NCBI RefSeq assembly: GCF_024055725.1
Contig: NZ_JAMXMX010000014.1
Coordinates: forward strand, 1 to 64,000
DNA length: 64,000 nt
From: Actinoallomurus spadix
GTDB taxonomy: Bacteria; Actinomycetota; Actinomycetes; Streptosporangiales; Streptosporangiaceae
Reading direction: 5' to 3'
In this document: in pieces, positions 29,188 to 39,742 of the stretch
How positions within the stretch are numbered: position 1 is the first letter of the stretch
Layout of the letters: every line of letters starts with the position of its first letter
Position numbers and translations under genes: made by a program
The notes under the pieces: generated by a model
What the model saw: the letters and a program-made list of their open reading frames with translations, nothing else
The model's database searches: none
What the model was told of the DNA's origin: nothing

Positions 29188-30141
29188 ATGGGCATCGAGG
29201 ACGATGAGGGCGAGGCCCCCCGGATTCCGCGGGCGATGAACGCTTCCGGGAGCCATTCCTCCGGTGTGACGGAGTTCTCCGGCGCCCTGCGAACGGCGAT
29301 TCAGAACAGTGGTCTCACGCTGGAAAGCCTGCGCACCCGGCTCCGGCAGCGGGGAATCCGGGTCAGTGCCGCCACATTGAGCTACTGGCAGGGCGGGCGG
29401 AGCCGGCCGCAGCGCCCCGACTCCATCGCCGCCGTCGGCGTGCTGGAACAGATCCTCGAACTTCCGGCCGGCACCCTGACCGACCTGCTGCGACCGCGCC
29501 GGCGCCGCGGCCAGGCGGGCGGCGGCCCCCTGCACCCGGCCCGCCTCTGGTCCGACCCGCGCCCCGTCCTCACCATGCTCGGCCAGCTCGACCGGTCGTC
29601 CGACCACCGGCTCGAATGGCTCGCCGTGCACGACGTCTACGAGGTCGGCGCGGACCGGCGCCCCCGGTCGCTGGTGGTACGGCAGGTGGTGCGGGCCTCG
29701 GGCGACGACGTCGACCGGGTCGTCGCCGTGCATCGCGCCGAGGCCGAGACGGACCCTCCCCCGGCGCTCGGCGACCTCCGCCACTGCCGGCGCGGGCGGG
29801 TACGCCACGAGGCGGGGTTCATCGCCTTCGAGCTCTTCTTCGACCGGGTGCTGGCACGCGGCGACACGGCGGTCGTGGAGTACGAGCTCGGCTTTCCGGG
29901 AGACCGGCCGATCACGCGATTCCACGAGCGCCGTTTCCGGCATTCGGTAAAGGAATATCTGGCCATCGTTCGGTTCGACCGGCAAGTGTTGCCGGCACGT
30001 TGCTACCGGTACGACCGCGACACCGTCGATGTGCCACGGCGCCGCACCGCCGAGCTGTGGGTCGGATCGTCCGGCGGCGTCCACATCACGAGGAGCGGTG
30101 TGGCGGGCGGAATCACCGGCCTGGAATGGGAATGGGAGTGA
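29188..30141 (+). CDS. HTH-domain protein of unknown function, first of a tandem pair
   Basis: 317 residues. The N-terminal XRE-like helix-turn-helix (about 30-100) contains LTLESLRTRLRQRGIRVSAA and LSYWQGGRSRPQRPDS. A C-terminal domain of about 200 residues has no family I recognise. It contains FELFFDRVLARGDTAVVEYE, IVRFDRQVLPARCYRY and the terminal GLEWEWE. The next gene (30445) is a paralog with the same layout and ending. Likely a cytoplasmic DNA-binding regulator. ATG 29188 is used; an in-frame ATG at 29236 is possible. Confidence 0.75.
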   Translation: MGIEDDEGEAPRIPRAMNASGSHSSGVTEFSGALRTAIQNSGLTLESLRTRLRQRGIRVSAATLSYWQGGRSRPQRPDSIAAVGVLEQILELPAGTLTDLLRPRRRRGQAGGGPLHPARLWSDPRPVLTMLGQLDRSSDHRLEWLAVHDVYEVGADRRPRSLVVRQVVRASGDDVDRVVAVHRAEAETDPPPALGDLRHCRRGRVRHEAGFIAFELFFDRVLARGDTAVVEYELGFPGDRPITRFHERRFRHSVKEYLAIVRFDRQVLPARCYRYDRDTVDVPRRRTAELWVGSSGGVHITRSGVAGGITGLEWEWE

Positions 30142-30444: not shown

Positions 30445-31353
30445 GTGCGGAGCACGGTGGAGGATGATCTCCTCCAGACGATCCGGAGTGGCCCCTTCGA
30501 CGTGGCGCTGCAGGCCGCCATCCAGGCTCGTGGCCTCACGCTGGAGACCCTCCAGCGGCGGCTGCGGGAGCGGCGCATCCACGTCAGCCTCTCCAGCCTC
30601 AGCTACTGGCGGCGCGGCCGGACCCGGCCGGAACGCGCCGACTCGCTCCGGGCGGTGCGCGGCCTGGAGAGCATCCTCGACCTCCCGCGCAACTCCCTCA
30701 TCACGCTGCTCAAACCGCCGGACGGCCGCCCGGCCGGGACCCGGTCGCTGGACGAAATCTTCCCGACTCCCGGAGCCCTCGACCTGCTGGACGAGATCGG
30801 CGAGCGGGTGGACGGCCGGATCACCTGCCTGAGTCTCCACGACCGGTACGTCCTCGGCCCGGACCGGGACCTCCTGTCGGCGCAGACCCGCGCGGTGCTT
30901 CAGGCACAGCGGCCGGGAGTGGACCGCTGGATCTGCCTCTACCAGAACGAACACGGCGTGCTGCCGACGCGCAAGGACGCGAGCCGCTGCAGGTTCGGCC
31001 GGATCCGCACCGACGAGGCGAGCGCGATCATGGCGACGGAGCTGCTGTTCGACCGGCCACTGGCTCGCGGCGAGACGTACCTCATCGAGTACGGCTTCGG
31101 CTTCACCTCGCCGGGGCCGCCCGACACCGAGGAGGGCCGGGGCTTCCGGTACCCCCAGCACGAGTACCTCCTGGAGATCGAGTTCCATCCGTCGGCGATC
31201 CCGGCCCGCTGCTACCGGACGTGGCGTCCGGACGGCGCCGCCCGGACGGCGGAGGAGACCGACCTGCGGCTGTCCAGTTCCCACACGGTCCACGTCATCG
31301 AGTTCGGGCTGCAGGCCGGCGGATACCTCGGGATCGGCTGGGAGTGGGAGTAG
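30445..31353 (+). CDS. HTH-domain protein of unknown function, second of a tandem pair
   Basis: 302 residues, paralogous to the product of 29188-30141. The N-terminal helix-turn-helix aligns closely (LTLETLQRRLRERRIHVSLS, LSYWRRGRTRPERADS). The C-terminal domain shares ATELLFDRPLARGETYLIEY, IPARCYR and the same end LGIGWEWE. GTG 30445 is taken because CCGGAGGC lies 10 bases upstream; the frame is open further upstream. The family and function are not known to me. It is followed by the decarboxylase gene with a separate promoter. Confidence 0.75.
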   Translation: MRSTVEDDLLQTIRSGPFDVALQAAIQARGLTLETLQRRLRERRIHVSLSSLSYWRRGRTRPERADSLRAVRGLESILDLPRNSLITLLKPPDGRPAGTRSLDEIFPTPGALDLLDEIGERVDGRITCLSLHDRYVLGPDRDLLSAQTRAVLQAQRPGVDRWICLYQNEHGVLPTRKDASRCRFGRIRTDEASAIMATELLFDRPLARGETYLIEYGFGFTSPGPPDTEEGRGFRYPQHEYLLEIEFHPSAIPARCYRTWRPDGAARTAEETDLRLSSSHTVHVIEFGLQAGGYLGIGWEWE

Positions 31354-36977: not shown

Positions 36978-37036
36978 GCGTCTCCGATCCGCTGAGGGTC
37001 ACTCGCCGGCGAGTGAAGATCATTAGACTTCCGCGG

Positions 37037-37468
37037 GTGCCAGACGATCCCGAGGCCGCGGACACGACCGGGGAACCCGCCGAGGACGACGCGCCCGCGT
37101 CCGCGGCGCCGTGGGCTCCGCCGGACCCCGCACGATCGAAGCCCCGATCCCCGGACCACGCGCGACCGGAGCCGGCACCGCCGGACACCGGAGGGCCGGA
37201 GCCGGCACCGCCGCCCCCTGCGACCGGTGGGAGAGGCGCTCCCGGCGAGGACGGCGCTCTGGGCGATGCTCCGCCGCGACGCCGCGGGCGCCGCAGATCC
37301 GTCGTCCTCGCGATCGCCGGCGCGATCGGCCTCATCGCGGGCGTGACCTGCCTGGTGCTGGAGTTCGATCGGGCGCCGACCGGGGCCGAGCGAACCGCCT
37401 CCGTGTCGAAGGAACTGGCCGCCCGCTGGCGTATCCGCACGGCGGGTGAGATCTTCGTACACCGATGA
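37037..37468 (+). CDS. Pro-rich single-span membrane protein, N-terminal part of a split gene
   Basis: 143 residues from a GTG. An N-terminal cytoplasmic Pro/Ala/Asp-rich region (about 1-85) precedes a basic RRRGRRRS anchor and one membrane helix (VVLAIAGAIGLIAGVTCLVL, 92-111). A short outside part follows: LEFDRAPTGAERTASVS, ARWRIRTAGEIF, then an abrupt VHR-stop. The outside part looks like the beginning of a larger extracellular domain. The overlapping +1-shifted frame (37446-37823) supplies sequence that would continue it. It is probably half of a frameshifted or deleted gene upstream of the mycosin-like protein. Confidence 0.55.
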   Translation: MPDDPEAADTTGEPAEDDAPASAAPWAPPDPARSKPRSPDHARPEPAPPDTGGPEPAPPPPATGGRGAPGEDGALGDAPPRRRGRRRSVVLAIAGAIGLIAGVTCLVLEFDRAPTGAERTASVSKELAARWRIRTAGEIFVHR

Positions 37469-37823
37469 GTCCCGCACGCTCCTCACCACGGTGGGAGTCG
37501 CCGTCATGCCGGACCAGAACCACGTCGACGCCGCGCTCGGCTCCCTGTCCGTAGGCGGTCACGAAAGGGCCGGTCTGCGGGTGGTGCCGTTCCCGCACAC
37601 CGTGGCCGCCGACTGGAGCGACGCGCGACGACAGGAGACGTCTTCTCGATCCGGTCCCATGCCCTACGCCATCCTGCAGGTCAGCGGATGGGCCGACGGG
37701 AGGACGATGCCCGAACTCGCCGACGCGGAACCCTTCCGGCACGCGGACACGCTGCTCGATCACCTGTCGGAATTCTTCGTCCACACGGAACGTCCGTGCG
37801 AGGAACGAGGAGTACGGTGCTGA
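37446..37823 (+). pseudogene. Shifted-frame continuation of the 37037 membrane protein
   Basis: This frame starts inside the previous gene (GTG 37446, no ribosome site) and encodes about 125 residues: SYTDESRTLLTTVGVAVMP, then HERAGLRVVPFPHTVAADW, DARRQETSS, PYAILQVSGWADGRTM. The composition and spacing look like the extracellular domain of membrane proteins commonly encoded before S8 mycosin-like genes in actinomycetes. I read the junction (AGEIF to SYTDES) as a frameshift, probably with a deletion because a Cys-containing stretch I expect is absent. It overlaps the next gene by 7 bp. Confidence 0.5.
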
Positions 37824-39019
37824 CCGGCGACCGAGCGACCGGGCGGGGTCGCCGGCTCACGGCACTCGCGCTGGCGGGACTCGTGTTCGCGGCCGCCGCC
37901 GGTACGCCGCGGCCGGCGCACGCGGCATCGGATGACCCGCAGGTGCGTCTTCGGGCCGAGATATCGCTGGCCCACGACGTCGCCAGGGGTGATGGCGTGA
38001 CCGTCGCCGTGCTCGCCTCCGGCGTCGATCCCCGCGTACGCCCGAGGTCCGGCGTCCTCCGGCAGGGGACCGATCTCGTTCACCTGCCCCATCCCCAGCG
38101 AATCGAGGGGACGCTGCTCGCCACCCTGATCGGCGGCGACCGCTCGGTCCCCGGTCTGCCCGCCCTCGCCCCTGGGGTCGGCATCCTGCCTGTCCGGATC
38201 TTTCCGGAGAAAGGCGACCACGGGGAGGATGACTGGCGGGAGAACACCAACTCCTGCGAAGTGATCACGCGGGGGATCCGGTACGCCGTCGACCATGGCG
38301 CGGGCGTGGTGCTGGTGGGTGATGCCTGCTCGGACGGCACCAGCAGAGACATGGAAGCGGCACTGGAGCGCGCCCGGAGAAGGAACGTCGTGGTGGTGGC
38401 GCCGAACGAGCCGATCGGCTATGGAGATCCGCCGCCGATGCCGGCCTCCCTCCCCGGTGTCATCGGCGTCGGGACGCTCGCCAAGGACGGCACCCGATGG
38501 CCGAAGTACTCCCTCAAGAGCAGCGTCACGATGGTCTCCGCGCCCGGCACCGCGACCACCGCGGTCGGGCCGGACGGGCGGAGCGGATGGACGTTCTGGG
38601 GATCTCAACCCGCCACGGCCTGGGTGGCGGCCACCGCCGCGCTGGTCAGGTCGAAGTTTCCGCGGCTGACGCCGTCGCAGGTGGCCCAGGCGATCGCGGT
38701 CTCCGCCCACCACCCCGAGGGTGGCTACAACGCCGATGTCGGGTTCGGAGTGGTGAACCCCGTGCAGGCCCTGAGCGCGGCGAAGGACTTCGAGCGGCGG
38801 CCGGTCGCCCCGACCGCCACCGGCGTCGGCGACGACGCCCACTTCGGTGGCCGCCAGGGCACGATCGATGCCGCCCGGCACGATCCCGCGTTGCTGGCGG
38901 GCCTCGGCGGCCTCGTCCTCGTGAGCGCCGGCGCGCTCGCCGCCGCGGCGCTCCGGCTGCGTGCCGCCCGCCGCGACGCCGAAGCCGTGCAGGCTTACCC
39001 GTGGATCTCGGCGACCTGA
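37817..39019 (+). CDS. Mycosin-like S8 pseudopeptidase (catalytic triad replaced)
   Basis: 400 residues with a signal peptide (1-36, cleavage AHA-A), a subtilisin-fold domain (about 45-310) and a C-terminal membrane helix (LLAGLGGLVLVSAGALAAAA, about 360-380), the mycosin layout. All three catalytic residues are substituted. The Asp strand reads VAVLASGVD (Ala67 where IDTG has Asp). The His loop reads RIEGTLLATLIGG (Glu97 for HGT). The Ser loop reads WGSQPATAWVAA (Gln264 for GTS). The oxyanion Asn197 (VVAPNEP) is kept. The frame is intact, so it is probably a non-catalytic binding protein rather than a dead gene. GTG follows CGAGGAGTAC. Confidence 0.8.
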   Translation: MLTGDRATGRGRRLTALALAGLVFAAAAGTPRPAHAASDDPQVRLRAEISLAHDVARGDGVTVAVLASGVDPRVRPRSGVLRQGTDLVHLPHPQRIEGTLLATLIGGDRSVPGLPALAPGVGILPVRIFPEKGDHGEDDWRENTNSCEVITRGIRYAVDHGAGVVLVGDACSDGTSRDMEAALERARRRNVVVVAPNEPIGYGDPPPMPASLPGVIGVGTLAKDGTRWPKYSLKSSVTMVSAPGTATTAVGPDGRSGWTFWGSQPATAWVAATAALVRSKFPRLTPSQVAQAIAVSAHHPEGGYNADVGFGVVNPVQALSAAKDFERRPVAPTATGVGDDAHFGGRQGTIDAARHDPALLAGLGGLVLVSAGALAAAALRLRAARRDAEAVQAYPWISAT

Positions 39020-39160: not shown

Positions 39161-39742
39161 ATGCCGTTCCGTACCCCCGCCCTCGCCCTCGTCGGCGCCC
39201 TCGCCCTCTCCATCGCCGCCGCTCCCGCCGCCGGCGCTTCGGCGGCGACCGCTCCCCAGCACGCCGCCGCGCTCGCCACGACCACCCTCTACTACGACGA
39301 CAGCCAGGCCGCGGAGTTCAAGAGCGCCGTGGTCGCCGGTGCTCAGGTGTGGAACGCCAACGTCCGCAACGTCCGGCTGGTCGAGGCCCCCGCCGGCACG
39401 ACCGCCCAGATCCGGATCATCGCCTTCGACGGCTGGCCGCAGTCGACGCTCGGCCCGGTGCGCCCCGGCGGACGCGGCACGGTGTACTTCGGCCGGGAGG
39501 CGGTCGACGAGGGGTACAACACCACGCGCATCGCCGCCCACGAGCTCGGCCACATTCTCGGACTGCCGGACGCCAAGCCCGGCCCGTGCTCGTCCCTCAT
39601 GTCCGGCTCGACCGGTGGCGTCTCATGCACCAACGCCACGCCGAACGCCTCCGAGCGCGCCGCCGTCGAGCGGAACTACGGTGGCGCGGTGGCCGCCGCG
39701 GCACAGCCCGTCGCGGGCGGAACCGTGACGGACGCGCCGTGA
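39161..39742 (+). CDS. Snapalysin-family zinc metalloprotease (M7), secreted
   Basis: 193 residues with a signal peptide (about 1-29, ALVGALALSIAAAPAAGASA). The mature part begins near TTTLYYDDSQAAEFKSAV. The zinc motif is HELGHILGLPD, the snapalysin HExxHxxGxxD pattern, followed by PCSSLMSGSTGG (Met-turn region) and a Cys pair. A small extracellular protease that typically prefers aromatic residues. It has its own promoter and a strong terminator, so it is monocistronic. Confidence 0.93.
   Translation: MPFRTPALALVGALALSIAAAPAAGASAATAPQHAAALATTTLYYDDSQAAEFKSAVVAGAQVWNANVRNVRLVEAPAGTTAQIRIIAFDGWPQSTLGPVRPGGRGTVYFGREAVDEGYNTTRIAAHELGHILGLPDAKPGPCSSLMSGSTGGVSCTNATPNASERAAVERNYGGAVAAAAQPVAGGTVTDAP

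Follow-up and report, generated by a model that had tools for sequence, protein, structure and literature searches.

Does a protease that has lost its catalytic residues still serve the cell, or is it a duplicate on its way out? The question is raised by a 400-codon frame, running from a GTG start to a TGA stop, in a stretch of 64,000 nucleotides from Actinoallomurus spadix (assembly GCF_024055725.1, positions 1 to 64,000 of contig NZ_JAMXMX010000014.1, here C5; the whole stretch is called the window). A reading made from the sequence alone had described its product as a membrane-tethered mycosin-type pseudoprotease of the S8 family, with an intact frame, a recognisable fold, a signal peptide and a C-terminal anchor, in which the catalytic Asp, His and Ser are replaced by Ala67, Glu97 and Gln264. 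In the explanation favoured here, which we hold with about as much confidence as doubt, sequence and predicted structure would make the protein a catalytically dead mycosin, a non-catalytic binding or regulatory paralogue of a module formed with a membrane partner, tethered outside the membrane. Computation shows a retained fold without the triad, a loss that extends over a clade of many genera, and constraint on the protein sequence; absence of proteolytic activity is predicted from the loss of the triad.

The frame was intact as claimed and the S8 fold was borne out by a Pfam PF00082 match of 51.3 bits and a score of 182.6 bits on TIGR03921 (type VII secretion mycosin; curated cut-off 278.75, not reached). 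The substrate-cleft fold is kept in the model, and the crystal structures ranked best against it include MycP1 and MycP3. A C-terminal transmembrane (TM) helix was found both by hydropathy and in the model (helix 357-393), and the hydrophobic N-terminal helix is predicted to be signal-like, a call made from hydropathy and the model helix without a signal-peptide predictor. The three replacements were confirmed by pairwise alignment to 95 active relatives and by their places in the predicted structure (Table 1); a strand end at Ala67 and helix starts at Glu97 and Gln264 are the usual triad places in an S8 fold. In a reverse motif look-up with the same 95 relatives, the active Asp fell on Ala67 in 82 (13 unmapped) and the active His on Glu97 in 35 (58 unmapped, one each on Tyr202 and Asp108); the unmapped rows may be due to the motif search itself. 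The oxyanion Asn, by contrast with the claim that it is kept, could not be upheld, as Asn197 faces Asn in a minority of the actives (Table 1) and Asn occupies that column in 7 of 28 clade members; the oxyanion motif was found in 36 of the 95 actives and mapped to Asn197 in 7 and to Pro199 in 17.

When orthologues were sought, both one in the genus and a family-wide clade were also without the triad. Among eight genomes of the genus, G004 carries an orthologue (68% identity, same flanking genes) with Ser, Glu and Pro at the three sites, and G001 a relative (39-41% identity) with Ala, Ser and Pro; Asp, His and Ser are all present in the other eight mycosin-like proteins of the window's genome (L002-L009). 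In 341 family genomes searched by profile, with typing by alignment, at least 28 copies in 26 genomes lacked a complete triad, and every one of these falls in one clade (clade 1); the number is a lower bound, as lower-scoring matches were typed only in part. S8 pseudoproteases are a known kind, and the tethered pseudoprotease described from the sequence is supported by the sequence itself, the predicted structure, the orthologue and this clade, with an S8 fold and loss of the triad in orthologues too.

Altogether 166 distinct mycosins were compared, 130 canonical and 36 not; among the latter, OUT_L003 is the tail piece of a canonical paralogue and L212, with a truncated start, was replaced by L055 (the same gene). 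In a tree of 137 mycosins with the triad columns removed (without 25 Streptomyces rows and 4 paralogues from the window's own genome), the dead copies formed two clades: clade 1, with 28 rows including the window's (Shimodaira–Hasegawa-like approximate likelihood ratio test, SH-aLRT, 100) and with the near-identical Nonomuraea antri copy (L114) and G138 counted as the same, and clade 2, with 7 rows (SH-aLRT 99; L091, L092, L096, L097, L089, L093 and L095) from Microbispora, Sphaerimonospora, Acrocarpospora, Microtetraspora and strain NEAU-GS5. The dead/active label needed 2 changes on this tree vs. a mean of 31 with shuffled labels, and a single origin of all 35 dead copies was rejected (approximately unbiased test, p-AU 0.005, from a quick tree and for a group named after the tree was seen, which weakens the p-value). 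To judge from these trees, the triad appears to have been lost twice, separately, among the mycosins of the family. Instead of joining the window/G004 pair, the G001 copy branches with those of genus g55, which fits transfer or differential loss.

The sites were compared between 28 clade-1 and 7 clade-2 rows and 94 active ones (3 paralogues and 5 divergent rows left out). In 27 of the 28 clade-1 rows, Ser, Gly or Ala stands at the Asp site; 14 residue types were counted at the His site and 13 at the Ser site. On this alignment, small residues prevail at the first site and almost any residue can stand at the other two. Single triad residues are kept in L114 (Asp), L195 (His), L207 and L215_9501 (both Ser), and all three in none.

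Regarding the reach of these searches, the window protein alone as query gave 67 stretches that matched the pattern, none of them a relative by tblastn, and the named loci came from the clade alignment as query, with the best 80 kept. Score alone failed to separate dead from active copies (G138, dead, 316.9 bits; G144, active, 316.3 bits). In a class-level search of 394 genomes, some of them family members, the best match, at 299.8 bits and not counting the window copy itself, belonged to a family member, and the best outside the family reached 263.9 bits and is untyped, so that absence of clade 1 outside the family is not claimed.

Constraint on the gene was estimated between the window and G004, giving a nonsynonymous distance (dN) of 0.22, a synonymous distance (dS) of 0.52 and dN/dS of 0.42 (bootstrap 0.31-0.57), with three gaps, all of whole codons, and no stops. 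For 11 neighbouring orthologues dN was 0.02-0.12, dS 0.16-0.25 and the ratio 0.13-0.52 (one poor paralogue pairing, with 41.6% identity and ratio 0.78, left out). Therefore, the gene is constrained yet fast-evolving, silent sites included. In a neutral simulation, 116 of 2000 runs stayed free of stops, so absence of stops alone is weak and dN/dS carries the case; this ratio averages all the time since the window/G004 split and is compatible with recent decay.

The genomic setting points to a two-gene module. The same type of membrane protein lies directly upstream in 125 of 133 mycosins, a one-pass protein of 256-261 amino acids with four cysteines in a PknH-sensor-like outer domain. Of 58 partners searched, 14 matched the PF14032 (PknH-like sensor) profile with an E no higher than 1 (best 7.1e-7); the modelled member is not among them, its sole profile match being DUF7373 (E 0.11); NCBIfam gave two single-member matches among the 58 and nothing coherent, and a sequence search of the PDB with partners gave no match. 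Compared to the extracellular domains of PknH (4esq) and TiME (7cu8), the partners are set apart by a length that leaves no room for a kinase and by this profile result, and that of the window is, in addition, broken. The split membrane protein reported upstream of the mycosin was indeed found, as two fragments in different frames: it is a broken form of the conserved partner gene, its end overlapping the mycosin start, and between its fragments the part that would carry the first two invariant Cys is lacking.

The exact 7-base overlap of partner and mycosin is found in 29 of 32 other non-canonical mycosins with a partner, and the heptamer RTGYTGA (GTGCTGA in the window) stands at the called start in 30 of 34, so that the mycosin start region includes the last Cys codon and the stop of the partner; mycosin starts come from our own gene caller, and the partner stop is fixed in the sequence itself. 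Many active modules overlap as well, mostly by 7 or 13 bases. The common site order is moeZ, at least one partner-mycosin module, and then MGMT and/or UvrD genes, these names being read from translated sequences and not from a family search. Ten clade-1 loci have one or two active modules followed by the dead one, which closes the tandem array, and each of the 7 clade-2 copies belongs to the second module at the moeZ site. For 15 clade-1 copies, including the window's, no active module adjoins within the stretch fetched (for L203 and L216 this ends near the gene at a contig end). An active copy is also present in 20 of the 20 genomes looked at, and relocated dead copies have an active module elsewhere in every genome examined (those of the window, G001, G004 and six more), with the active module's partner on contig C6 in the window's genome. 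That dead copies often adjoin an active one and are almost always preceded by a sensor-like membrane protein suggests a retained regulatory role.

Three loci are worth recording here. L215 (G208:C28, 9501-13172) has three dead mycosins in a row, with an active one on either side; numbers two and three lack a partner gene of their own. In G211 (L211 and L247), an active mycosin, an adjoining clade-2 dead copy and, elsewhere, a clade-1 dead copy coexist in one genome. At L020/L218 (G007:C101, about 244856-248380) there is a broken mycosin remnant with Asp at the Ser site and no N-terminal half, in which the gene caller found no intact mycosin; it adjoins small genes that by eye resemble YbaB and WXG proteins.

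As to how such a protein could work, the dead mycosin would be held by its C-terminal helix on the outer membrane face and would act by binding, not cutting, occupying a surface that the active mycosin would use and that could belong to the sensor partner, a substrate or the active mycosin. Peptide binding and a decoy function, both raised in the sequence-only reading, may fit this picture as well. Such binding might tune the active module in the manner of pseudoproteases CspA and CspC of Clostridium difficile, which have lost catalytic residues, are encoded next to the active CspB and take part in signalling as a complex (PMC6636752, PMC6199464, PMC12880746). As that complex does not include CspB according to PMC12880746, the parallel would be signalling by pseudoproteases and not a stable dead/active pair. 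Likeness lies in an S8 paralogue that lost its catalytic residues and kept its fold, and in dead and active paralogues encoded side by side, whereas the Csp proteins are soluble spore proteins of a Firmicute and the window protein is a membrane-anchored actinomycete mycosin type with a one-pass partner; the comparison is by analogy and makes no claim of common ancestry of the loss. Because its own partner is broken, the dead mycosin of the window must use that of the active module on C6, act alone or be in early loss. More tentatively, and with the balance somewhat on the side of doubt, the family may have seen at least two origins of a sensor-gated protease/pseudoprotease system, in which a PknH-type outer sensor and an anchored mycosin occur in tandem and the last mycosin, its catalysis lost, would serve the active one as gating or signal-receiving subunit.

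Several observations weigh against a kept binding or regulatory role. The partner is broken in the window and has lost its N-terminal TM part in G004; the mycosin evolves faster than the 11 neighbours by dN; clade 1 is patchy, being found in only 26 of the 341 family genomes; and a copy in G007 lacks its N-terminal half, and in G264 the profile match spans two stops in the C-terminal part. On the partner side, the fold match of the modelled member is modest (Foldseek best E 0.017), and the partner tree, in which long branches meet, needs 5 label changes (2 forced by starred branches) and is not an exact mirror of the mycosin tree, so strict co-descent of the two was not upheld.

The broken partner makes decay the main rival: the module would have been copied or moved here, the protease died, the partner broke, and the gene, of little or no use at present, would be disappearing. 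Fast evolution, patchy distribution with relocations and the truncated copies of G007 and G264 speak for it, as do the different ways in which the partner is broken in the window and in G004 and the presence of the window's flanks without the module in G003, the sole informative genome of the genus for this comparison. It is nevertheless rather unlikely, considering a dN/dS whose upper bound is 0.57, gaps that are in-frame only, the absence of stops, and a dead clade that persists across many genera with fold positions and gene overlap conserved.

A structural role in type VII secretion, stabilising an ESX membrane complex without cutting as inactive MycP1 and MycP5 do, is improbable. According to PMC5082899, mycosins are essential for this secretion and their protease activity is dispensable there, inactive MycP1 and MycP5 restore secretion in M. 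marinum by a protease-independent role, and ESX complexes are unstable without MycP; the ranking of MycP1 and MycP3 agrees with such a role. However, EccD, the only ESX marker searched in the window's genome, was detected on contigs C22 and C4 and, below cut-off, on C37, with none on C5, in agreement with the sequence-only reading that there is no ESX/type VII cluster here. The TIGR03921 score is low, although four active moeZ-type mycosins (248-275) are also under the cut-off and one other paralogue of the window's genome reaches 281.7. The suggestion of a scaffold for secretion likewise found nothing directly in its favour, as this mycosin type is mostly found in a sensor-like partner module, often near moeZ. 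Compared to the mycosins (MycP) of TIGR03921 and MEROPS S8, the window protein differs by its replaced triad, its score, the lack of EccD on its contig and its module.

A protease with a rearranged or unusual active site is very improbable. The cleft is kept and Ser263 adjoins the Ser site, but Ser263 is present in 4 of 28 clade-1 members, His89 and His92 vary in a 23-row clade alignment, and no His, Cys or Lys is invariant in the 28 rows; the well-conserved Asp 48, 86 and 159 and Ser 296 columns lie off the triad positions, and the window has Glu at 48. A triad rebuilt from His89, His92 or Ser263 was rejected for this lack of conservation. Although a split upstream partner can signal local errors, a sequencing or assembly error in an active mycosin is refuted for the triad, with next to no probability left: its residues were replaced by three separate changes that all keep the frame, the orthologue of a second species has no triad either, and a whole clade shares this state.

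In the open-access literature searched, no paper joining mycosin and pseudoprotease was found, pseudoprotease with actinobacteria or streptomyces gave nothing relevant by title and abstract start, and mycosin with actinomadura gave a keratinase study by title and nothing else; subtilisin pseudoprotease work, among the papers listed, concerns mainly Clostridium and Plasmodium. Within the reach of these searches, a clade of mycosin pseudoproteases that is conserved and has a sensor-like partner, plus a second separate loss, is new. A natural clade that has given up catalysis and still has its fold and anchor can reveal which surfaces count when nothing is cut. Tandem arrays of active and dead copies, together with the two separate losses, allow a comparison made by nature, and through the sensor-like partner a connection between an outside signal and a membrane protease could be tested.

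Table 1. Features of the pseudo-mycosin locus, in window positions.
Feature	Position	Strand	Remarks
Partner fragment 1	37013..37468	+	proline-rich N-terminus, one TM stretch, start of outer domain
Partner fragment 2	37446..37823	+	other frame; C-terminal part of sensor-like outer domain
7-base overlap GTGCTGA	37817..37823	+	partner's last Cys codon and stop overlap pseudo-mycosin start
Pseudo-mycosin coding sequence, 400 aa	37817..39019	+	hydrophobic N-terminus, S8 fold (about residues 40-330), linker, C-terminal TM helix
Signal-like N-terminal stretch, residues 1-36	37817..37924	+	model helix 12-27; end placed by eye
Ala67 codon, catalytic Asp position	38015..38017	+	opposite Asp in 95/95 active relatives; end of strand 62-67
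Glu97 codon, catalytic His position	38105..38107	+	opposite His in 91/95; start of helix 96-106
Asn197 codon, proposed oxyanion Asn, equivalence not established	38405..38407	+	opposite Asn in 17/95 actives
Gln264 codon, catalytic Ser position	38606..38608	+	opposite Ser in 95/95; start of helix 263-280
C-terminal TM helix, about residues 357-384	38885..38968	+	hydropathy peaks 358-384; model helix 357-393

In the search of the genus for the same site without the module, G005 gave no match, and in G001, G002, G006 and G007 the best SDR (71-76%) is without an M7 gene within the 1.5 kb fetched. In the window, a snapalysin-type (M7) metalloprotease gene (39161-39742, motif HELGHILGLPD) lies directly downstream of the mycosin and is present in G004 and G003. 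Farther upstream, the adjacent genes at 29188-30141 and 30457-31353 both match the same G004 gene (42% and 93% identity) and are apparently tandem relatives with a helix-turn-helix-like N-terminus, a motif recognised by eye.
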